Assembly: GCA_016212665.1 (NCBI GenBank)
Contig: JACREZ010000008.1
Coordinates: 1-64,000 of the forward strand
Direction: 5' to 3'
Source of the DNA: Ignavibacteriota bacterium
GTDB taxonomy: Bacteria > Bacteroidota > Ignavibacteria > UBA10030 > SZUA-254
Length of the DNA: 64,000 bases
Positions 3,610 to 54,640 of the stretch are shown one piece after another. Each line of letters begins with the position of its first letter. The stretch's first letter is position 1. A model generated the notes under the pieces. The model was not told the DNA's origin and ran no database searches. It saw nothing but the letters and a program-made list of their open reading frames with translations. The translations under genes were made by a program, and so were the position numbers.

Positions 3610-3985
3610 CAATCTTCAATTTGAATGATTTCTTATTAAGAAATCTGATTTTATTAGGGAAAAATTATTATCGGGGTGATTTTTTAGATTTATAAATATT
3701 TATTCAATTTCAGTTCGATAAAATACCCACAGATGAAATTCCTACCTCTATTCAACTTCACAAATACTCAATACGTAAAATAAGTGACTGCTTGCAACCA
3801 ACAGTCTTGTTATGAGACGATATTCTTAAAACGAAACCATCAATCTCATAATAGTTATCTTTTTGTGAATTTTTGACCAAGAATTGTTGGCATAATTCTT
3901 TACATATTTTTTGCCGCAAATGAAAACCGTTATGATAATTTCCGAAACTTTGTACCTTCACAATAATTTTTCTCGTAACTAAGTC
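3610..3985. other. AT-rich spacer, no gene seen
   Basis: The 376 bases between tRNA-Pro and the response regulator are AT-rich and carry no supported gene. A minus-strand frame at 3758-4051 overlaps the start of the regulator and lacks family resemblance. Confidence 0.5.
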
Positions 3986-4408
3986 ATGAAAAATCCTCCC
4001 TACGAAATATTGATTGTTGAAGATAACGTTGCTCACTTGAAATTGACTCAATACGTCTTGCTCAAAAATAAAGTTGATAGCCGTATTACTGTTGTTCGGG
4101 ATGGACAGGAAGCGCTTGACTATCTTTTTAAGAAAAAAGACGAAGAGGGAAAAACAGAGTTATCCAGTCCACACATCATTTTGCTTGACCTTAATCTCCC
4201 AAAACGTGATGGGCGGGAGGTTTTAAAGTTGGTGAAAGAGGACCCTGTTCTTAAATCAATTCCTGTAGTCATTGTTAGTACCTCTGACAGAGAAGAAGAT
4301 GTTACGTATGCCTACGAATTCGGAGCGGCTGGTTATATTAGTAAATCAAGCGATTTCAGCAAATTCAGTTCTGAAATCAGTAACGTTACACAGTACCTTT
4401 CGCTCTAA
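3986..4408 (+). CDS. Single-domain response regulator (CheY/Rcp1-like)
   Basis: The 140-residue protein is a lone receiver domain with no output domain. Acidic residues ED near position 12 and the phospho-acceptor Asp in LLDLNLPKRDG (about residue 68) are present. The conserved Ser/Thr in VSTSDREEDV and the Lys in GYISKSSD are also in place. The extended loop around the phosphorylation site is typical of Rcp1-type regulators that partner with phytochrome-like or hybrid kinases. No kinase is adjacent, so the partner is unknown. It stands alone between tRNA-Pro and der. Confidence 0.88.
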   Translation: MKNPPYEILIVEDNVAHLKLTQYVLLKNKVDSRITVVRDGQEALDYLFKKKDEEGKTELSSPHIILLDLNLPKRDGREVLKLVKEDPVLKSIPVVIVSTSDREEDVTYAYEFGAAGYISKSSDFSKFSSEISNVTQYLSL

Positions 4409-4493
4409 CTATTCTTTCTCAAACATTGTATCGTTTGCATCCTATTGGATGTAAAACGATTAATTTGTATTATCTTACCAAGAAATTGTAATC

Positions 4494-5804
4494 ATGTCCC
4501 AAATCGTAGCAATCGTCGGACGACCGAATGTCGGAAAGTCCACATTATTTAATCGTCTCCTTGGCGCTCGTCAATCAATAGTACATGATGAGCCCGGAGT
4601 AACTCGCGACAGGTTATACGCAACTGCTGAATGGGCAGGCAAAACATTTACACTTATTGATACAGGAGGTTTTGTTCCTGCCTCCGAGGACTTATTTGAA
4701 CAGGCAATACGAGAACAAGCGCAAATTGCAATTCAGGAGGCTGATATTGTTTTATTTGTCGTTGATGCTTTGAGCGGACCAACTTCTCTTGATATAGAAA
4801 TTGCATCAATCTTAAGAAAAACAGAGAAAAAATTATTCTTAGTAGTGAACAAAGTTGATGGTGAAAAAAAAGAAGTTGAAACGGCACAATTTTACAAATT
4901 AGGTCTGGGAGAACCGGTTGGAGTTTCCGCACTCGTTGGAAGAAACATTGGTGATTTCCTTGATGCAATTACCGAATCATTTCCCAAGGGAGAATCTGAA
5001 ATTGATAATACGCAATTACGGCTGGCAATAGTAGGAAAGCCTAACGTAGGGAAATCTTCTCTTGTTAATGCACTGCTTGGCAAAGACAGAAGTATTGTTA
5101 CCAATATTCCCGGAACAACCCGCGACTCAATTGATTCAATACTCAAATATCACAAAGAAGAAATTGTGTTAATTGATACCGCCGGATTAAGACGGAAAAG
5201 TCGTGTGAAGGAGAGCGTCGAATTTTACAGCACTCTACGTGCATTAAAAAGTATTGACCAATGTAATGTTGCAATCTTAGTTATTGATGTTGTACAGGGA
5301 ATGGATAAACAAGACCTCCGTATTCTCGACCAGATTATCGAGCGAAGAAAAGGAGTCGTGCTTGTCTGCAATAAATGGGATGCGGTGGAGAAGGATGACA
5401 AGACAGCAATCGAATATGAAAAAACAATACGCGGATTGTTGAGAATTTATGATTATATCCCGCTCGTTTTTATTTCCGCTTTAGAAAGGCAACGAATCTT
5501 CCGCGTCATCACTGATGCGCAACACGTACATTCTGAAATGAATAAGAGAGTTTCCACCAACAAACTGAACAAACTCTTGCTTGAAGATATTAAAAAAAGT
5601 CCGCCTTCAGCAGTGAATGGCAAGGAAATTAAAATCAATTACGTCACACAAGTTGCAGTGAATCCACCGGCAATTACGTTCTTTTGCAACGAGCCGAAAC
5701 TTGTTCAGGAAAACTATAAGCGTTTTCTTGAAAGAAAAATTCGCGAATACTTTACCTTCGAGGGTGTTCCCGTTTATGTTTACTTCAAAAAGAAAAATAA
5801 ATAA
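4494..5804 (+). CDS. der: Ribosome-assembly GTPase Der (EngA)
   Basis: This 436-residue protein has two tandem GTPase domains and a C-terminal KH-like domain, the signature of Der, which is needed for 50S subunit maturation. The first P-loop is GRPNVGKS near residues 8-15 with DTGGF following, and NKVD as the G4 motif. The second P-loop is GKPNVGKS near 180 with DTAGLRRKS and NKWD. Length is normal. It is followed 10 bases later by a flavoprotein gene that could share its transcript. Confidence 0.96.
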
Positions 5805-7257: not shown

Positions 7258-8694
7258 TTAACTTTTCAACTCGAAACTAAACTCACTCCCTTTACCAACT
7301 TCACTTTGAACTTCGACATGACTTCCATGCGCTTCAATGATATGTTTGACAATCGCAAGACCGAGTCCTGTCCCGCCCGATTCGCGTGAGCGTTCTCTGT
7401 CAACGCGATAGAATCTCTCGAAGATTCTCGCAAGATGTTCTTGCGCGATTCCAATCCCGGAATCTTTCACAACGATTTTTATTTTTCCATCAGAATGAAA
7501 TGACGAAACAGTTACAGTTCCCTTGGGTTGAGTATATTTAACTGCATTATCAATCAAATTGATGACGGCTTGCTTGAGACGTTCCTGGTCTCCAAAAGCC
7601 GATAGAGAAGAACCTGTCTTTTCGTACAGAATTGAAATACTTTTCTGTTCGGCAAACTGTTTCATTTCAGTAATAATGTTTGAAAGAAACTCATTCACAT
7701 CAAAATACCGGAAACTCATTTTCATCTCGCCTGATTCGATGCGGGAGATTTCAATCAAATCGCCGAGCAGGGTGTTAAGCCGCTCAGCGTTCTTCAATGC
7801 TCGTTCAACAAAATCTCTGCTGACTTCCTTATCATCGAGCGCTCCGTGAAGAAGTGTTTCCAACATTCCTTGCATGGCAAAAATCGGAGTGCGCAGTTCG
7901 TGCGAAACATTACCGAGAAATTCGCTCCGTACTCGTTCAAGTTTTTTTAACTTGCTGATGTCTTCATTCAATTTGTCAACCATGCTGTTCAAACTTTCCG
8001 CTAATCTTCCCAATTCATCGGAAGTGCGGACGGGAATTCTTTTATCAAGATTTCCGGAACGAATTTCTTCCGCAATTGTAGCCATAGTTGAAATTGGTTT
8101 TGCAATTCTTCTCGAAACGAAAAATGTCACTGCGGCAACAACGAACAATACAAATGCACTGGTAAAAATTATTTTGGTTTGAATATCACGCATCACTTCG
8201 TTCACGAACGTAAGCGGTACACCGAGACGGAGAAATTTCACATTCGAGTATCCGCTTTCAGCAGGAAGGGGTGTTCGGATATTTTTTGCAAGATATAACA
8301 TATCAATGTTAATGGTTGCGCTGTGGCGAATATTTGTCCCAAATTCTTTCGTCGTTGCTTCCCGGACTTCCGGTCTGCCGAGATGATTTTCGACTGTTGG
8401 AAGTTGAGACTCCGGCAGTTCCGACTCGAATAAAACCTTTCCTTGATTATCAATCAGTGTAAGTCGCAGGTTGGCAGAGTGTGCAAGTTGTTTCAAGTGG
8501 TCATAACGTAATGAGTCGGTGTCGGAAAAGGTTCGAATGACGTACTCAAATTCGTTTGCTTGAGTTGTCATTTCATTGATAATGCGCGCACGGAAATAAT
8601 TATCAATTGAGATGGTAGAAAAAATTCCCGCGGCGATAATGACCCCGCTGGAGAGAAGCAACAACAATATTGTTAACTTGGATTGGATTTTCAT
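7258..8694 (-). CDS. PhoR-like sensor histidine kinase
   Basis: A 478-residue membrane kinase. Residues ~8-28 and ~174-194 are membrane spans enclosing a periplasmic sensor domain of about 145 residues. A HAMP linker follows (~195-247), then a HisKA domain with the phospho-accepting His265 in FLGNVSHELRTP. The HATPase domain carries the N box NLIDNAVKYT, the G1 box VKDSGIGIA and the G2 box GTGLGLAIVKHI. Its start overlaps the end of the response regulator gene by 4 bases, so the two are a cognate pair. The stimulus is unknown; similarity to PhoR would suggest phosphate or envelope stress. Confidence 0.92.
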   Translation of the reverse strand: MKIQSKLTILLLLLSSGVIIAAGIFSTISIDNYFRARIINEMTTQANEFEYVIRTFSDTDSLRYDHLKQLAHSANLRLTLIDNQGKVLFESELPESQLPTVENHLGRPEVREATTKEFGTNIRHSATINIDMLYLAKNIRTPLPAESGYSNVKFLRLGVPLTFVNEVMRDIQTKIIFTSAFVLFVVAAVTFFVSRRIAKPISTMATIAEEIRSGNLDKRIPVRTSDELGRLAESLNSMVDKLNEDISKLKKLERVRSEFLGNVSHELRTPIFAMQGMLETLLHGALDDKEVSRDFVERALKNAERLNTLLGDLIEISRIESGEMKMSFRYFDVNEFLSNIITEMKQFAEQKSISILYEKTGSSLSAFGDQERLKQAVINLIDNAVKYTQPKGTVTVSSFHSDGKIKIVVKDSGIGIAQEHLARIFERFYRVDRERSRESGGTGLGLAIVKHIIEAHGSHVEVQSEVGKGSEFSFELKS

Positions 8695-10063: not shown

Positions 10064-10294
10064 AAAGGATAAACTTCCGGAGAAAAAAGGATTTCTTTTC
10101 AAAGAAAAGGTATTTACACCCAAAATAAAGGTATTTACTGCCAAAGAAAAGGTATTTATAGCCGAAGAAAAGGAATTTACAGCCGAAGAAAAGGTATTTA
10201 CAGTCAAAGAAAAGGTATTTACAGCCGAAGAAAAGGAATTTACAGCCAAAGAAAAGGTATTTATAGCCGAAGAAAAAGGTGTTATTCGCGAAAT
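10064..10294. repeat. 21-bp tandem repeat array (about 11 copies)
   Basis: Eleven head-to-tail units of 21 bp follow one another. A typical copy begins AAAGGTATTTACAGCCGAAG, and the central copies differ by one to three bases while the outer copies are more divergent. The period of seven codons keeps several frames open on both strands, giving heptads such as EKVFTAE on the plus strand and AVNTFSS on the minus strand. No start codon or ribosome-binding site precedes the plus frame. Two other arrays of the same period lie at 36,906 and 54,326 in this window. Confidence 0.9.
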
Positions 10295-11556: not shown

Positions 11557-12285
11557 ATGAAATCTGAAAAGCGGTTTGGTGGTATCGTAGCTGAAGAATA
11601 CGAACATTTCATTAAAGGAACACCTCATTATGAAAAGTTTGTCAATAGAATTGCTTCGGAAGTAAAGAAGTATTGCAAGGACAAACCGAACAGAGATATC
11701 AACGTTATTGATATCGGGACAGGTTATGGTTTTTGTGCTAAATTTGTTTTGAAGATATGCCCCAATCTTCAACTTGTTGCACTGGACAATGAGAGAAATA
11801 TGACCCTGCGAGCGAAGAAATACCTACAAGAATACATAGCCAATGGAAATACTACCGTTGTCCTTACTGATGCGTTGACATATTTAAGAAAACTTCCGAA
11901 CGATTCTATAGACATCTATTTTTCTTCGTGGGTTATCCATAATTTTCAGCAAAACTATAGGACTAATATATACAAGCAGATGTATAGGACACTTAAGCCC
12001 GGTGGATTGTTCCTTAATGCAGACAAGTACGCATGGGATAATGAAATTGTTCAGAACAGAGAGTTGGAATGGCAAGTTTCTAAGTTCTTTGAAATTTTTA
12101 GTTCCCAGAAACGATATGATATATTGGAAGAATGGGTAGTACATTACATTAGAGATGAGTCGCCAAAATTAGTAATGAAAGAACGAACATCCATTGAACA
12201 AATGAAAAAAGTTGGCTTCACAAGTGTTCAGAGATTAGCAAGAGAGCACATGGAGTGTGTAATTAAATCAATAGTAAAAAAATAA
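11557..12285 (+). CDS. Class I SAM-dependent methyltransferase (operon gene 1)
   Basis: A 242-residue methyltransferase with a Rossmann core. Motif I is VIDIGTGYGFCAKF near residues 50-63, the acidic residue ending strand 2 is in LVALDNE, and the post-motif IYFSSWVIHNF and TLKPGGLFLNADKY follow. The fold is like CmoA or small-molecule methyltransferases, with no DNA- or RNA-binding domain attached, so a small molecule or a tRNA-linked substrate is more likely than DNA (inference). It is the first gene of a tight AT-rich run with two TIR-like proteins and an ABC importer, 10 bases upstream of the first TIR-like gene. Confidence 0.8.
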   Translation: MKSEKRFGGIVAEEYEHFIKGTPHYEKFVNRIASEVKKYCKDKPNRDINVIDIGTGYGFCAKFVLKICPNLQLVALDNERNMTLRAKKYLQEYIANGNTTVVLTDALTYLRKLPNDSIDIYFSSWVIHNFQQNYRTNIYKQMYRTLKPGGLFLNADKYAWDNEIVQNRELEWQVSKFFEIFSSQKRYDILEEWVVHYIRDESPKLVMKERTSIEQMKKVGFTSVQRLAREHMECVIKSIVKK

Positions 12286-12742: not shown

Positions 12743-14055
12743 TGAATGTGCATATTTATTTGAGTTTTAGTGAAAAGTTAAACGAGACAAATTACAAGTT
12801 GATAGATAATTTAATTGAAGCGTTCAACAAGAAAAAAACAAAAGACTTAACATGTATAATAGAGACACCTTCAGATATCTACTCTGGCGGTGGAAGCAAA
12901 TATGATAGTTTAGCTGAAAGATCTACCAAGATCAATTTTGCTGTATTCGTGTATGACAAGATTGAAATCAACAAAAAAGATATTATATCAAAAATGAACA
13001 GGGAAGATATTAAGGAAATCAATAAAATGAATTTCGAATTAGGGTACTTTTCAAAAAGGCTAGGTCCCCAAAAATGTTTTTTAGTCTACCTCTCTGATGA
13101 TCACCAAATATATCCTTTGCCAGAACAAATTGATAATTCTCCCTTTTATTTATCAAACAAGCAGGAATCACCGATAGCAGGCAAAATCATTGAGAGAATA
13201 AAAACTATTCTTGCTAAACAACAATCGGAAGAGGATATTTATTACGATAGAGTATTGTCAAAAGACAAGAATCAATGGCATTTGAAAGTTGGTATAGTTG
13301 ATTATCCGCCTTTTTGTACACCTAAATATGAAATGGAAAAAATAATTGATGCAGAAGGATTATATCCGATATTGCTAAAAAAGATAATCAAGAGCTTTAA
13401 TAGAGAAGCGAAGATGAAATATTCATGGGAATTAGTGAATTGGGATAATCTATACAGGGCAATAACTACAGATTTTGATATATTGATAAGTGTTTTTGCA
13501 ACAGGTTACCGAACACAACTTGGACGAAGTTGTAGAACTATCCATCAGGTTCCAATTTGTGGTCTTTGTAAAAAAAGTAATACCAGAATTCCTGATACCA
13601 TTGAAGCACTAATCACTGATGATAGGATCAAAATAGGTCTCTTGAAGGGAGAAATTGGATATGTTTGGGCTGAAGAAACATTACTTAGGGAAGGAGAAAC
13701 AATGGAAAAGGAAAGATTCGTATATTTAGAAGGGACACAGGATATTGAAAAGCTTGTATCCTTACTTGATGATAATAGAGCAGACATAATTGTATGTGAT
13801 GCTTTATCCCTTTATCGAATATGTGAAAAAAGAGATCACGAAAATTTTGTCGTCAAGTTCGGTTATGAAAATCCCCTTAGGTGGGGAAACAACACTTTTA
13901 TTGTAAAGAACAATCAAATTGTTTTTAGAGATAAAATCAACGAGAAATTAGAAGACCTATTAAACGACAGATATATTGAAGAACGTGACCGAGCTGAGTT
14001 AACAAATTATAAAGCTATAAATATTACTAACTTTAAAGGAAAGCAATATGTTTAA
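12742..14055 (+). CDS. TIR-like domain fused to a solute-binding domain (operon gene 3)
   Basis: A 437-residue two-domain protein. Residues 1-~157 form a second TIR-like domain (MNVHIYLSFSEKL, FAVFVYDK, then NFELGYFSKRLG with Glu99 in the catalytic position). After a short linker, residues 181-~425 resemble a family 3 solute-binding protein (SBP_bac_3). The opening is LKVGIVDYPPF, followed by ELVNWDNLYRAITTDFDILIS and DNRADIIVCDA near the end. There is no signal peptide or membrane segment, so this binding domain should sit in the cytoplasm, unlike normal solute-binding proteins. Its end overlaps the start of a secreted solute-binding lipoprotein by 8 bases. I infer a ligand-gated TIR enzyme; I know of no described protein with this architecture. 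Confidence 0.72.
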   Translation: MNVHIYLSFSEKLNETNYKLIDNLIEAFNKKKTKDLTCIIETPSDIYSGGGSKYDSLAERSTKINFAVFVYDKIEINKKDIISKMNREDIKEINKMNFELGYFSKRLGPQKCFLVYLSDDHQIYPLPEQIDNSPFYLSNKQESPIAGKIIERIKTILAKQQSEEDIYYDRVLSKDKNQWHLKVGIVDYPPFCTPKYEMEKIIDAEGLYPILLKKIIKSFNREAKMKYSWELVNWDNLYRAITTDFDILISVFATGYRTQLGRSCRTIHQVPICGLCKKSNTRIPDTIEALITDDRIKIGLLKGEIGYVWAEETLLREGETMEKERFVYLEGTQDIEKLVSLLDDNRADIIVCDALSLYRICEKRDHENFVVKFGYENPLRWGNNTFIVKNNQIVFRDKINEKLEDLLNDRYIEERDRAELTNYKAINITNFKGKQYV

Positions 14056-36700: not shown

Positions 36701-36905
36701 CATTCCCATTGGAGGTGAATTTACTGATTAGGTAGGGCAGTTAATTCAATAATTGTAATTCCAATCTCTAAGCATGGTGCTAATCTTTCCATTATCAATA
36801 CTAATAAATGGAATATTAGTGTTAATGACTCCTATATCAGTAATAATATCTGACTTATTGATATTAATGTTTCCTGCAATATCCTTAATATATGACTGAA
36901 TTGCA
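36701..36905. other. AT-rich spacer, no gene seen
   Basis: The stretch after the ATPase gene is AT-rich, with many ATTAATA/AATATTA words, and no supported frame. It leads directly into the 42-bp repeat array. Confidence 0.4.
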
Positions 36906-37305
36906 CAATAGTTCCTAATATTTGCAGAAAAGTAAAGAAGTATTGTATAAAAGTTCCCAACAATTGCAGAAAAGTAGGGAAGTATTGTACAATAGTTCCT
37001 AATATTTGCAGAAAAGTAAAGAAGTATTGTATAAAAGTTCCCAACAATTGCAGAAAAGTAGGGAAGTATTGTACAATAGTTCCCAACAATTACACGAAAG
37101 TAGGGAAGTATTGTACAAAAGTTCCCAAGAATTGCAGAAAAGTAGGGAAGTATTGTACAAATGTTCCCAACAATTGCAGAAAAGTAGGGAAGAATTGTAC
37201 AAAAGTTCCCAAGAATTGCAGAAAAGTAGGGAGGAATTGTACAAAAGTTCCCAAGAATTGCAGAAAAGTAGGAAAGAATTGCACAAGAGTTCCCAACAAT
37301 TGTAG
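36906..37305. repeat. 42-bp tandem repeat array made of two 21-bp halves
   Basis: About nine and a half units of 42 bp follow one another. Each unit joins a half like CAGAAAAGTAGGGAAGTATT to a half like TACAAAAGTTCCCAACAATT. The two halves carry GGGAA and TTCCC, so the unit can fold back on itself. The first two 84-bp blocks are almost the same. Frames stay open on both strands (for example the 14-residue unit LQKSREVLYKSSQQ on plus). The plus frame is broken by TAA at 37,000. Period 21 is shared with the arrays at 10,064 and 54,326. Confidence 0.92.
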
Positions 37306-50360: not shown

Positions 50361-52178
50361 TCATGCAGTCCTTACATGTTGCATTCTTCTCTTTTTGTAT
50401 TTCACTTCCGGTTCTAATAATATCAACTGCTGAGAATGAACAGGCATCATCGTCTTAATAAATTCGTCCCACTTGTCAAGTTTGATATTCTGTTTGAATT
50501 GCTTGTTAATTTCATCAAGCTCGGCTTGGATTTTCACATTTGTAAACTGTAAAGCAAGTTTCAGAATATCAATTCGCATGAGAATATCTTTAGTGAAAGT
50601 TCGCTTTGCATCAGAAAAAGTAATTGCTTGCAGAAGTTCTTTTGACTTGCCAGAGTTTAAAAGTATGAGTGTGTAAACGGCAAACTCCAACTTGTCAAAG
50701 CCTAATAAATAACAGGTGTCGTCAAGCATGATTGGCTTTCCGTTTTGTGGCAACACCAAATTGAAAGAATAGTTTTTATATAAACCCGAAATAGAAATTT
50801 TATAGGGGGCAAAAGAGTAATCACCAATTCCGAAAATTGAATAATCGGGTTTGTTGTCGTAGATGCTTGATTTGCGTAAATCGAATTGTGCTTTGTTTTT
50901 GTGTAGATAGTGGAAAGTTTTTGGGAAGTCTTTTTTGATAAACGAAGTATCTTGTCCAACTTTTTTCTGTGTAATGATTGTAAACTTTCTCGTCTTGTCA
51001 ATTACCGTTTCTTTGAGGTCAGAACTTTTCAGTACACCGAAAACCAAATCTTCTTCTATAATTACTTCTTGTTGAAGTCCATTAACAAAATGTCCGTTGA
51101 CTCTCTCAAGTTCCATGATGGAAGAACAATCGTGCTTGATTCCTTGTCTCCATTCAAAAGGAGAACGTCCGTCAATATCATTGCTGTGTTTGTAGAGTTC
51201 AACGCTTGAAACAAATTTATCTTGAACCCAACCAAATTGATTGAGCAGTGTAGCATGGTTGTAAAAATTATATTCGTTGCAAACGAATTCAGGGATTCCA
51301 TTCAACTTGCAAAAAAGTAATGATGCTTCAACCGAAACATTAAATTCTTTCTTACTGTCAATACTTAGTTTTTGTAAGTCGGCAATGTTATAGTTGCGTT
51401 GTTGTTGGTCAAACACCACATTTTTTATCACAGAATTTTTAACAAGAAAAGCAAAGTGTCCATGTGAATATTGGAAAGCATCAAACATCATAAGCGTAAT
51501 GTATTCGCCAATGTCAAAGTTTCCTTTCCCTGTCATGGCATCCAAACCACTATGATTTTTGAAGTTTGACTTTATCGGTAGGTTGCCCGAACCCAAACTA
51601 CTCAATTTGGAATTTGTAACCCACGGAGGATTTCCAATAACTAATATTTCTCTTCTTGAATGTTCTTTGCAAATTCTCCCAAAATCGAAATCGAAAACAT
51701 TAAAGTGGTTGATTTCGATTTCCGGTTTTCTTGTGTCAGGGTTATCAATGAAAAATTGAAGAATGTTGAACTTCGTTTCCCACACATACGGTTTGTAAAT
51801 CTCGACTCCAAATATTTTTTCAATTCGCTTGAATGTGCTTAGACAAGCGACAATAAAATTTCCCTTTCCGCACGTCGGCTCAACAATGATTTCAGGATTT
51901 GAAGAAACTTGCTTTAAAAACTTAACAACATTCGATGCTAAATTAGGATTAGTTTGAAAATCTCCATATTCAGCTCTGTCAGGTTCTGCAATTAAACTAC
52001 TGTGAGAGCAAATAATTTCTTTCAATGCTTCAAGTTCAATCTCGCTCTCAAAAAAATGTTTGATGCCGCAAGCATCAAACATTTTTTGATTGGCTGTTAC
52101 AAGCGTTGTCGTCCTGTTCAGTTTGTTGCGTAAGAAATCTGAAACCTGATGAGTAATATTTGCTTCAAATATTTTCAT
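50361..52178 (-). CDS. Type II DNA adenine methyltransferase
   Basis: A 605-residue N6-adenine methyltransferase. Motif I is IVEPTCGKGNFIVACLS near residue 95-111 and the catalytic motif IV is VIGNPPWVTNSKLS. The C-terminal half is a target-recognition region of about 300 residues without known motifs. The start overlaps the end of the endonuclease gene by 4 bases (both on minus, endonuclease first). Together they should form a restriction-modification pair that defends against foreign DNA. Confidence 0.88.
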   Translation of the reverse strand: MKIFEANITHQVSDFLRNKLNRTTTLVTANQKMFDACGIKHFFESEIELEALKEIICSHSSLIAEPDRAEYGDFQTNPNLASNVVKFLKQVSSNPEIIVEPTCGKGNFIVACLSTFKRIEKIFGVEIYKPYVWETKFNILQFFIDNPDTRKPEIEINHFNVFDFDFGRICKEHSRREILVIGNPPWVTNSKLSSLGSGNLPIKSNFKNHSGLDAMTGKGNFDIGEYITLMMFDAFQYSHGHFAFLVKNSVIKNVVFDQQQRNYNIADLQKLSIDSKKEFNVSVEASLLFCKLNGIPEFVCNEYNFYNHATLLNQFGWVQDKFVSSVELYKHSNDIDGRSPFEWRQGIKHDCSSIMELERVNGHFVNGLQQEVIIEEDLVFGVLKSSDLKETVIDKTRKFTIITQKKVGQDTSFIKKDFPKTFHYLHKNKAQFDLRKSSIYDNKPDYSIFGIGDYSFAPYKISISGLYKNYSFNLVLPQNGKPIMLDDTCYLLGFDKLEFAVYTLILLNSGKSKELLQAITFSDAKRTFTKDILMRIDILKLALQFTNVKIQAELDEINKQFKQNIKLDKWDEFIKTMMPVHSQQLILLEPEVKYKKRRMQHVRTA

Positions 52179-52855
52179 CGCTTGCGTTTATAGAAACTTA
52201 TAATTTTTGTAATTCCTTTAACTTCTTTCTCCAATGTTACAATTCTTTGGTATTGTAATCGCCATTGTAGCGCATTAGAAATAGTAAGGTATCCTTGCTC
52301 CGGCGGTGATTGTAAAATCTGCTCTGCCAATTTTGATAAAGTTATTTCATCGGCAGGAATATTTTTATCGTTCAGATAAGCAATGATGTCAGCCTCATTT
52401 GCGTTGTCCTTAATCATTTCTCTCAGCCGAAAAGTAGTAGTGTAGTCAGCAGTTCGTTCTTTTGAAACGAATGAGCAACTGACAAAATTCAGAATAGCAG
52501 TTTTAGTTTTTGGGTTGTCTGCCTTATCGTAAACGAAAACAAGTAAGTTGTAACCAAGTCCGAAAATTTTTTGTTTAGCATCTTTAAAAGGACACGAAGA
52601 TTGAGGTTGCTTAATTGAAGTTACTTTGATGTCGGTAAGAATGTCAGCCGATGGTAAGTCAATTCCACTTGCTGAAGAGCCAACCGTTACTTCATAGTTG
52701 TCATTCAGATGCTTTTGGAACTTCTGCTCGATGAAAGTTCCAACGGCTTTACCATCCGTTACTCCGAAAAGTTCTTTATGTTGAAGTTTTGATTGAGAAA
52801 CACAAAAAATATGGGCTTCTTCAATCAGTTTCTTTATTGTTAATTTTTGCTTCAA
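52175..52855 (-). CDS. Type II restriction endonuclease partner
   Basis: A 226-residue protein encoded right before the methyltransferase. A PD-(D/E)xK nuclease core is suggested by GSSASGIDLPSADILTDIKVTS (Asp in GID and the DIK triad near residue 77), with ELFGVTDGKAVGTFIEQKFQ before it. Its neighbour and order make the restriction function likely, but the recognition site cannot be read. It lies just after an attC-like site. Confidence 0.72.
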   Translation of the reverse strand: MKQKLTIKKLIEEAHIFCVSQSKLQHKELFGVTDGKAVGTFIEQKFQKHLNDNYEVTVGSSASGIDLPSADILTDIKVTSIKQPQSSCPFKDAKQKIFGLGYNLLVFVYDKADNPKTKTAILNFVSCSFVSKERTADYTTTFRLREMIKDNANEADIIAYLNDKNIPADEITLSKLAEQILQSPPEQGYLTISNALQWRLQYQRIVTLEKEVKGITKIISFYKRKR

Positions 52856-52996: not shown

Positions 52997-53128
52997 GGAT
53001 AACGTTTTGGGGCTTTGCGTTCGGGCGGGTTTTGGAGCACGAAACTGTACACTTTCACCGAACTCGAATAGAAGCACAAAACTCCAAGTTTGCACGTAAC
53101 CCCGCCTGACGCAAAACCCGGGTTATGC
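52997..53128 (-). other. attC-like integron recombination site
   Basis: On the minus strand this 132-bp site starts with GCATAAC (R'') and ends with GTTATCC (R'). Between them inverted arms (GGGTTTTGCGTCAGGCGGGG and CCCGCCCGAACGCAAAGCCC) pair as in attC sites. The right core is the exact complement of the core at the far end of the gene (54,005-54,020), the textbook mark of a gene cassette. Confidence 0.75.
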
Positions 53129-54019
53129 CCAATTTTACTTTTCATTTCTTGTTCGTCATTCTCAATACAGCGTGTAATGTTGCTAAATAGTAATAGAAAA
53201 TCCAACTATACCAAATTGCTTTATCATACTCTGTTTGTTGGTCTTTATTGTGGTGTCTAATTCCAAAATTGTTAGCGATATTAAATAAGTCGCTTTCGTC
53301 TTTCCTGTTTAAATGTTCCTTAATTGCGGGTCTAAGAAATTCTAAAACGTCCGCCAATTCTCTAATTGCTTCTCGTCTGTCATCAAGTGTTGATTTATGT
53401 CGTCTAAATTTCAGAATTGCAGAATTTATTTTGTTTGAGATATTGTCCTTGTCATTTGTGGGAATGTCCGCTTCAAACAAGTTTGAAAGTCCATTGTCGG
53501 AAAGAATTAGTATTTCTCCGTCTTCAGAAATTTCAAAGCCGTCTTTATATTCTCTCAAAATTGGGTTTAATAATTCTCTAAAGCGTTTTTGACCTTCAAT
53601 GTCATTAAATTCTTCATAGTGGTAGCCACAATTGTTCCAACTGTGAAAGTGTCCGTTGAGTCCTTTTGAGCAATGGTCGTGAAGAAATTCAATTACGTCA
53701 AAGAAATCGTCTTCGGAGTAGTTGGGCAAATTTTTGTAAATAGGATATAAATTGTCTTTCCTTAAATTCACGAAAATTATCGCTTCAACTTCTTCTCCCA
53801 ATTCTCCAGAAATAAATCCGTCAGTGCAGTCTATACCGAAATACTTTTGAAAATAGCCGTCAGCATTTAATTTGTTATAAGTTACGAAAAAAAGTTTCTT
53901 CAACACTTCAAAGTTTACTTGTTGGTCGGGTGTGATTTTCCCTGTCCTTACTGAATAATAGTCTCTTTTAATCATTACTTATTTTCTTCTTTGTCGTGTC
54001 GTTTTAAAATTGGGCATAA
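53003..54019 (-). mobile_element. Integron gene cassette carrying one unknown gene
   Basis: The 16-bp sequence TAAAATTGGGCATAAC (plus strand 54,005-54,020) stands before the gene, and its reverse complement GTTATGCCCAATTTTA (53,122-53,137) stands after it, next to the attC arms. If the cassette is cut at G/TTAT on both sides and circularised, the two would form one continuous palindromic attC site, as in integron cassettes. No integrase is seen in the window, so this is a lone cassette, or one of a cluster lacking an integrase. Confidence 0.7.
53142..53975 (-). CDS. Unknown cassette-borne protein
   Basis: A 277-residue soluble protein. The N-terminal half has GELGEEVEAIIFVNLRKDNLYP and a Cys/His region CSKGLNGHFHSWNNCGYHYEEF. 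The C-terminal half is helical: RREAIRELADVLEFLRPAIKEHL, then FGIRHHNKDQQ and a final hydrophobic helix YSWIFYYYLATLHAVLRM. The last part recalls abortive-infection C-terminal (HEPN-like) domains with an R-x-H-like motif, but I would not claim it. It is the only gene in the predicted integron cassette. Confidence 0.7.
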   Translation of the reverse strand: MIKRDYYSVRTGKITPDQQVNFEVLKKLFFVTYNKLNADGYFQKYFGIDCTDGFISGELGEEVEAIIFVNLRKDNLYPIYKNLPNYSEDDFFDVIEFLHDHCSKGLNGHFHSWNNCGYHYEEFNDIEGQKRFRELLNPILREYKDGFEISEDGEILILSDNGLSNLFEADIPTNDKDNISNKINSAILKFRRHKSTLDDRREAIRELADVLEFLRPAIKEHLNRKDESDLFNIANNFGIRHHNKDQQTEYDKAIWYSWIFYYYLATLHAVLRMTNKK

Positions 54020-54020
54020 C

Positions 54021-54325
54021 ATTTAAATATACGTATCCATGTTAACCTAAGAAGCGCAAATCCAGCATCCATATTGCAGGAATACGCAGGTTTACGATGA
54101 AATGAATAGCGGTTATTATCATCATAATAATTTACTGTGTGATTAAGTTTTGTCTTCTGAATCGAACTTGAGATAAAGTAAAATAGGTACCGTATTATTT
54201 CCTGTAAATATACATCATTCATTTTGTGAATCAAATTTGCTCTCGGTAGTTATAAGAACTTTCCCTATCAGTTATCAGCGTGGGAATGCAATAGGGACAC
54301 TCAGTTTCCAACAACCACTCATCTC
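54021..54325. other. Spacer before the 21-bp array
   Basis: AT-rich sequence between the cassette start and the third 21-bp array. No gene and no further attC-like arms can be seen. Confidence 0.4.
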
Positions 54326-54640
54326 GGAGAACTTCACTTTCATCAAGGAGAAACATTTTCCCAAACCGGAGAAACACTTTTCCAACGCGGAGAAACATTT
54401 TTTCAAACTGGAGAAACATAGTATTAGCGAGGAGAAAAATATTCTCAACGAGAAGAAACATTTTCCTGACGTGGAGAAACACTTTTCCAACTCGGAGAAG
54501 CATTGTATCAGACCGGAGAAACATACTATTAACGAGGAGAGAAATATTCCCAACGAGAAGACCCATTTTTCCAACAGGGAGAAACACTATTTTAGGTCGG
54601 AAACACACTTTTCCTGCATCGAGATTCACTCTCATTCCCA
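54326..54640. repeat. 21-bp tandem repeat array (about 15 copies)
   Basis: Fifteen units of 21 bp start with GGAGAAACATTTTCCCAAAC and related versions. Each unit is almost a palindrome around GGAGAAACA/TTTTCC. Plus-frame translation gives heptads EKHFSNx, minus frames give MFLRVGK and CFSGLxK. The frames stay open, but there is no ATG near the start of the plus frame, so coding is doubtful. It shares the period with arrays at 10,064 and 36,906, and the EK-x-F-x-x-x heptads echo EKVFTAE of the first. Confidence 0.9.

Follow-up and report, generated by a model that had tools for sequence, protein, structure and literature searches.

A gene cassette behind a repeated leader in an Ignavibacteriota genome and its probable relation to integron-like recombinases without the IntI insert

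How does a single gene come to lie between perfectly complementary ends in a genome in which no integron integrase is found, and what could have placed it there? The question is raised by one locus in the 64,000-nt stretch analysed here (the window: positions 1 to 64,000 of contig JACREZ010000008.1, Ignavibacteriota assembly GCA_016212665.1). A sequence-only reading had described this locus as an integron-type cassette of the kind called clusters of attC sites lacking integrases (CALIN), without giving its strand; gene, cassette and attC all lie on the minus strand, where a leader is followed by the cassette and then by a type II restriction-modification pair (Table 1). The cassette limits in the table assume a crossover between G and TT of GTTATGC and of GTTATCC. 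The same reading had missed the leader, a repeated sequence of 220–240 nt that makes the locus a docking site with a promoter. We consider it probable that the locus is an orphan docking site carrying one defence-like cassette of an integron class whose recombinase lacks the IntI insert.

Table 1. Features of the cassette locus, in positions of the window.
Feature	Positions	Strand	Basis
Leader, promoter-like 5' part and attI-like 3' end	54021–54260	minus	Five copies in the genome, common GTTA end
Promoter-like motif TTTG-N19-TATATTTA	54205–54235	minus	5' promoter part found on its own at other loci of the genome
Gene cassette	53003–54019	minus	Complementary ends; same layout behind other leader copies
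Cassette start GTTATGCCCAATTTTA, R'-side arm	54005–54020	minus	16-nt complementarity
Complementary arm TAAAATTGGGCATAAC at cassette end, R'' side	53122–53137	minus	16-nt complementarity
Cassette gene, 277 aa	53142–53975	minus	No Pfam family; weak PADLOC PDC-S32 match
attC-type site, 132 nt, R'' GCATAAC ... R' GTTATCC	52997–53128	minus	Match of model R2; covariation
Type II restriction enzyme and methyltransferase genes, right after attC	50361–52855	minus	PADLOC matches

The exact reverse-complement ends on which the earlier description was built are real. The two arms are complementary at 16 of 16 positions (100%), with 867 nt between them. Across 100 first-order Markov copies of the window, GTTR-anchored complementary pairs reached 14 nt at most; the observed pair thus exceeds all 100 copies, and a chance palindrome was rejected. 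No further exact copy of the arm occurs in the window; besides the two arms there is one match with two mismatches, and 1.03 matches at up to three mismatches are expected by chance. In integrons, complementary ends arise when a circle is inserted by way of its own attC at G|TT. The cassette start examined here is complementary to the R'' end of its own attC over all 16 nt, as in integron cassettes, and the two would match because the cassette was inserted as a circle through that attC. For 26 of 50 related sites, an upstream start agrees at 9 or more of 10 bases, compared with 6 of 50 in the control; three of these 26 are the window genome's training sites for a model described below, and two (L145 and L166) lack a GTT start. 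The 50 sites are those left after eight of 58 model hits were omitted, two cut by contig ends and six weak.

The 132-bp structure ending in GTTATCC, in which the second arm had been placed, is likewise present. Its folding energy does not stand out (z −1.23, matched by 24 of 200 shuffles), and the case for an attC site is therefore not based on stability; the support comes from covariation across 58 related sites and from the match of a covariance model built without the window genome. The 58 aligned sites have a covariation score of 0.411, versus 0.138 when shuffled, with 84.8% standard pairs among the pair cells and 206 cells in which both sides have changed. Sliding the partner by one to three columns gave 31–41% pairs, 30–51 double changes and scores of at most 0.066, a comparison that favours the unslid version since the alignment was fitted to the structure.

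Two covariance models were used, and the E-values of both are rough. Model R1 was built from three sites of the window genome, whose R1 scores are thus obtained by construction. It finds five sites in this genome at E ≤ 1, all at the leader loci described below, and, at E ≤ 1e-3, 51 sites spread over 19 of the order's 98 genomes, including four in the window genome. Model R2 was built from 15 sites from other genomes and one plasmid, none of them from the window genome; all 15 are also R1 hits, so that R2 is blind to the window genome without being independent of R1. Across 258,033 bases of the window genome, R2 hits six sites: two on contig C32 (96.1 and 68.9 bits), the window attC (95.1 bits, E 2.4e-20), C12b (62.1 bits), C27 (29.8 bits) and C12a (21.3 bits, E 0.014). 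The window attC is its only hit in the window at E ≤ 1, and the covariance-model check proposed by the sequence-only reading thus came out in favour of attC. The complementary ends and a hairpin whose structure is conserved by R1, R2 and covariation, as is that of integron cassettes, together support the assignment to an integron-type cassette. An Rfam RNA was considered and rejected, as Rfam has nothing at this site at gathering scores. An attC-type pattern search of the window genome led nowhere, a two-mismatch search for AACGTTATGCCCAA gave 21 matches versus 52 for the reversed control, and a hand-made arm scanner returned many chance hits in the window. Separately, a shared element around TTGCTACGCTCC.GCGTAGCAATG is seen inside or beside attC loops at several loci of the window genome (L044 about 8095–8125; L043 about 11760–11800 and 13590–13625).

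The protein encoded by the cassette matches no Pfam family, and its match to the PADLOC candidate defence family PDC-S32 is weak (E 1.7e-7). A search for other occurrences of the protein found it in one of 60 genomes, the window's own. Relatives are encoded by two IMG/VR contigs, at 43 and 45% identity, and by 34 plasmid records, the closest of which reaches 50.7%; around both IMG/VR relatives, GTTR-type complementary ends were not seen. The restriction-modification pair that follows (PADLOC REase_II, E 5.7e-85; MTase_II, E 7.9e-125) is possibly a second cassette whose own attC is gone. Allowing up to two mismatches in 10, the complement of GTTATCCGCG had no AAC-ended match within 6 kb.

The leader sets this locus in a wider context. 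It is a dispersed repeat with five full copies on four contigs of the genome, namely C8 (the window), C12 twice (C12a and C12b), C27 and C32, the C32 copy being more diverged. The five leaders, at 83% mean column identity, all end at the same GTTA, and five different genes follow them. Their 5' part, which also occurs alone, without the rest of the leader, at other loci of the genome, carries the motif TTTG-N19-TATATTT, which we take to be the Bacteroidota promoter type. Together with a T9SS-type C-terminus, this promoter type points to the Bacteroidota/Ignavibacteria side. All five, being copies of one another, have CGT 13 nt before GTTR; ten bases before GTTA, the window leader has ACGT and the other copies GCGT. 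Arrays of 21-nt (or 42-nt) repeats, with differing sequences, lie 0.1–1.3 kb upstream of the leader at C8, C32, C12a and C27; such arrays occur in the window at 54347–54586, 36900–37302 and 10100–10280, and further ones at L028 7936–8610, L043 5470–5710, L044 11156–11525, L047 10720–10949 and L049 14681–14886.

Behind the leaders, C8, C12b and C32 have downstream an exact complement of the first 10 nt of the first cassette, and C27 has one with a single mismatch; at these four loci it is followed by an attC-type site. At C12a, no complementary end was found under two mismatches, and the weak attC hit lies behind the genes. The arms vary between leader loci and match inside each locus. The first genes encode a PDC-S32-like protein, a DUF3800 protein, a 1431-aa protein with a NACHT match below the Pfam cut-off, a YCII-domain protein and an S41 peptidase. 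C32 has three genes in array form (DUF3800, TPR and Schlafen AlbA_2) with two attC sites; the ends of the third cassette match at 9 of 10 bases, and the TPR gene is without an attC of its own. On C12, a glyoxalase-type gene lies between GTTAGCGGTA and TTCCGCTAAC (L043 13154–13585), and this contig may therefore hold more cassettes than its leaders show. The whole leader was not found in the other 97 genomes, three of which gave matches of 22–30 nt. A search with the exact leader pattern yielded two matches among the genome contigs, both within coding sequence and due to chance, and none among the viral contigs, in sets that may leave out records of the window genome.

The integrase that was first described as lacking near the cassette was not found elsewhere in the assembly either. 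The search of the genome for more attC sites and an intI gene, which the sequence-only reading had proposed, was successful for the former, at the leader loci, and found none of the latter. TIGR02249 detects only two genes, both below cut-off, which NCBIfam names XerD (371 bits, over its cut-off) and XerC-like (331 bits, just under). An IntI with its specific additional domain, as in canonical integrons, was thus not found in an assembly that is 99.65% complete in 45 contigs and in which a gene could sit in a gap.

One alternative is that these are cassettes of ordinary IntI integrons, either dispersed into attG sites or left behind when a canonical integron was lost. The attC architecture is the classical one, 22 of the 98 genomes of the order have an IntI above the TIGR02249 cut-off, and cassette insertion into bacterial attG sites is mentioned in the part of PMC12901181 drawn on here. 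However, this attC type and IntI do not co-occur, with IntI in 3 of the 19 genomes with R1-type attC versus 19 of the 79 others. In 20 IntI loci (250,651 bases), R2 finds no site at E ≤ 0.1, and several attC-like sites picked up there by a simple scanner begin GCCTAACGGA or similar. Random targets, moreover, would not be one 220-nt leader five times over. We regard this alternative as unlikely. Within the order, canonical IntI does not accompany the window's attC type, so the parent system was probably not an integron from which only IntI had been lost.

A different enzyme is found next to such leaders in other genomes. In G050, the leader comes directly after the gene of a 375-aa tyrosine recombinase, and in other genomes short leaders that end like those of the window genome precede several cassette starts. 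The recombinase gene lies upstream of the array and in the same orientation, followed by the short leader, GTTR and the cassettes. Its product has the Pfam domains Phage_int_SAM_4 and Phage_integrase; its best NCBIfam match is NF040815 (210 bits, cut-off 220), followed by TIGR02249 (189.7 bits, cut-off 265), and the closest solved structures by sequence are XerA and an XerC-like protein, then IntI4. In nine measurable members of the family, 88–91 residues separate the first catalytic arginine box from the HxxR box, versus 130 in ten IntI and 95 and 97 in the window genome's Xers, showing that they lack the IntI insert. A tree of 47 rows (25 members from the order with an open frame, three plasmid members, 17 IntI and the window genome's two Xers) places the 28 family and 17 IntI rows together against the two Xers (100/100). 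IntI forms one clade, grouped with seven family rows (82/89), in a tree that has only two Xer rows.

At a limit of E ≤ 1e-55, set by eye, the family is present in 29 of the 98 genomes of the order. It occurs in 9 of the 19 genomes with R1-type attC versus 20 of the 79 others (one-sided p 0.057), a co-occurrence that is only suggestive. The training sites of R2, the model that finds the window attC, include sites of G050 and of a Chryseobacterium plasmid that adjoin the insert-less recombinase. Most recombinase-adjacent attC sites are unlike the window type, with one R1 hit in 29 loci and seven R2 hits, most of them weak, in 31 loci; an alignment of these sites was dropped because they are too diverse. 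In the window genome the recombinase gene was not found, the best match being XerD (E 7.9e-30). G021 retains a piece of the gene with an internal stop, and G059 and G090 have apparent remnants, judged by eye.

That the best match is XerD raises the second alternative, in which the resident XerC/XerD, and not a lost integrase, move the cassettes. XerD and the XerC-like protein are indeed the recombinase relatives that were found here, but the hairpins at these sites are of attC type and end in GTTR, and other genomes have a separate, IntI-like recombinase next to such leaders, making this alternative quite improbable.

By eye, many of 21 loci of the insert-less recombinase have a short palindrome and GTTR within about 150 nt after the stop codon. 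Of 30 recombinase-adjacent regions, 16 carry CGT or CGC at or close to a distance of 13 nt ahead of GTTR (14 of them at precisely that distance), compared with 4.1 expected from shuffles; the motif is absent from both Chryseobacterium leader regions. At the 16 loci with at least 400 nt downstream, ten have a GTTR start with a complementary end (at most one mismatch in 10), exact at seven, and six have no matching cassette end; 48 GTTR starts were tried and random 10-mers matched in 66 of 640 cases, so that about five chance matches are to be expected. The contig end is nearer downstream than upstream of the recombinase in 25 of 29 cases, versus 6 of 23 for IntI, and lies within 300 nt downstream in 13 of 29 (0.98 expected), versus 2 of 23 for IntI, which is what repeats or variable arrays would cause.

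The complete form, with recombinase, leader and array, is found on a plasmid of Chryseobacterium sp. SNU WT5 (NZ_CP041688.1), where the recombinase is annotated as 'site-specific tyrosine recombinase/integron integrase'. Its array holds genes for Crp/Fnr, RidA, a hypothetical protein, a metallophosphoesterase and GLPGLI as well as an IS110 insertion, with three R1 hits between them. One short cassette is present at three places of the array, one copy being annotated as a 56-aa hypothetical protein, and a query consisting of the leader and this cassette matches six places of the plasmid. A second Chryseobacterium plasmid, NZ_CP094530.1 (C. oryzae), agrees with NZ_CP041688.1 at 93.5% over the 107 nt after the recombinase, and the two diverge at GTT. 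The first gene of NZ_CP094530.1 has an imperfect end only; it encodes a VOC protein that is 63% identical over 159 aa to the product of a C12-region gene of the window genome. Another plasmid (L224, Flagellimonas marinaquae NZ_CP092416.1), typed as mobilizable, carries a gene of the dihydrofolate reductase family with an R2 hit on either side (97.5 and 30.9 bits; 3891–4735) and has erm(F) and another family recombinase nearby. In G035, the same cassette start follows two different leaders (L136 on C25, from 769; L201 on C37, from 3276), one of which adjoins the recombinase; C37 ends inside the cassette start.

We propose that the window locus is what remains, with a single cassette, of an integron-like platform. 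The leader would supply both a promoter and a docking site like attI, ending at G|TTA, and the cassette would have entered as a circle by recombination of this site with its own folded attC, after which transcription from the leader would read the cassette gene. The likely catalyst of the exchange is the insert-less recombinase that adjoins the leader in other genomes and on Chryseobacterium plasmids, and that this genome appears to have lost. As five leaders are kept and no recombinase gene was found, the cassettes would be stranded, or moved only by an enzyme acting in trans. A third alternative, a transposon- or MITE-like unit of leader, gene and hairpin that is copied around the genome between 16-nt inverted ends with the gene as passenger, is hardly credible: the leader is a dispersed repeat and the inverted ends are perfect, but the arms differ from locus to locus while matching within each, they do not enclose the leader, the hairpin is situated past the second one, C32 has an array of three genes with two attC sites, and no transposase gene is among the ORFs listed at 50–57 kb of the window.

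Relatives suggest that the missing enzyme is of a branch of integron integrases that has been overlooked in Bacteroidota-type bacteria. We see roughly even chances for a broader claim, that the insert-less IntI relatives found before arrays constitute a whole integron class that is common in such bacteria and was missed because programs demand the insert, with orphan promoter docking sites as its footprints; this class would explain both the homology-independent gene uptake of flavobacteria and the origin of the recombinase-tet(X) modules. The parts of PMC8352920 and PMC9668308 drawn on here use the additional domain to separate integron integrases from other recombinases, and the domain is also described as needed for recombination in integrons. 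In PMC9668308 integrases are detected by PF00589 together with an IntI-domain profile, by which insert-less genes would be passed over. Among the titles and abstract openings of the open-access papers retrieved, none describes an insert-less integron class. Should complete cassette arrays be run by insert-less relatives, integrons would be more widespread than has been counted, and the IntI insert may be a later gain. The class would also be a possible source of resistance and defence genes leaving Bacteroidota as cassettes.

The window locus shares with IntI integrons the attC-type hairpins with R'' and R' ends, the complementary cassette ends, a promoter with a docking site ending in GTTR and, mostly, one gene per cassette. 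It differs in that the recombinase of related loci is without the IntI insert and stands upstream of the cassettes, in their orientation, and in that none was found in the window genome. It is like a CALIN or single attC of IntegronFinder in having an attC and a cassette with no integrase nearby; unlike these, it has a conserved promoter-bearing docking site before the cassette, at five places of the genome. The CALIN label given by the sequence-only reading is thus right as to the integrase but not as to the cluster, for the window locus has a single attC and IntegronFinder 2 by default takes at least two (PMC9024848, in the part drawn on); two attC sites without an integrase are present at C32.

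The insert-less recombinase probably belongs to the integron-like subgroup of simple tyrosine recombinases described in PMC8138268. In the passages drawn on, that paper notes subgroup members without the insertion and holds the insertion essential for integron function, whereas the insert-less members described here adjoin leaders and cassette arrays. In Acinetobacter, xerD-tet(X) modules were published as an ISCR2-linked unit (PMC7530245, in the part drawn on). A. baylyi pJAT2044 resembles our loci in having a family recombinase, shorter than the others, a leader ending in GCGT-N10-GTTA, tet(X3) and a partial attC-like site; in stretch L225 (A. baylyi NZ_CP104735.1, 2967–5117), a palindrome and GCGT-N10-GTTA lie between the shorter recombinase and tet(X3). 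Unlike our loci, the tet(X3) stretch has no complementarity between its start and its end, and its attC match is weak (R2 20.8 bits, E 0.013; R1 11.1 bits, E 0.25) and cut by the record end.

Riemerella anatipestifer offers a further comparison, as it takes up aph(3')-IVb independently of homology by a mechanism that the authors leave open (PMC13148043). The section of that paper drawn on here names no recombinase, unlike the loci described above. It does describe a flavobacterial host, a single site, no detected integron and a gene that entered with 27 bp upstream and a 140-bp attC-like part downstream, all of which are like our loci. The parts of PMC9668308, PMC8138268 and PMC13148043 used here agree with the insert-less reading, and none of them tests it; under that reading, the puzzle of how flavobacteria take up genes with attC-like tails in the absence of homology (PMC13148043) would offer a direct test.
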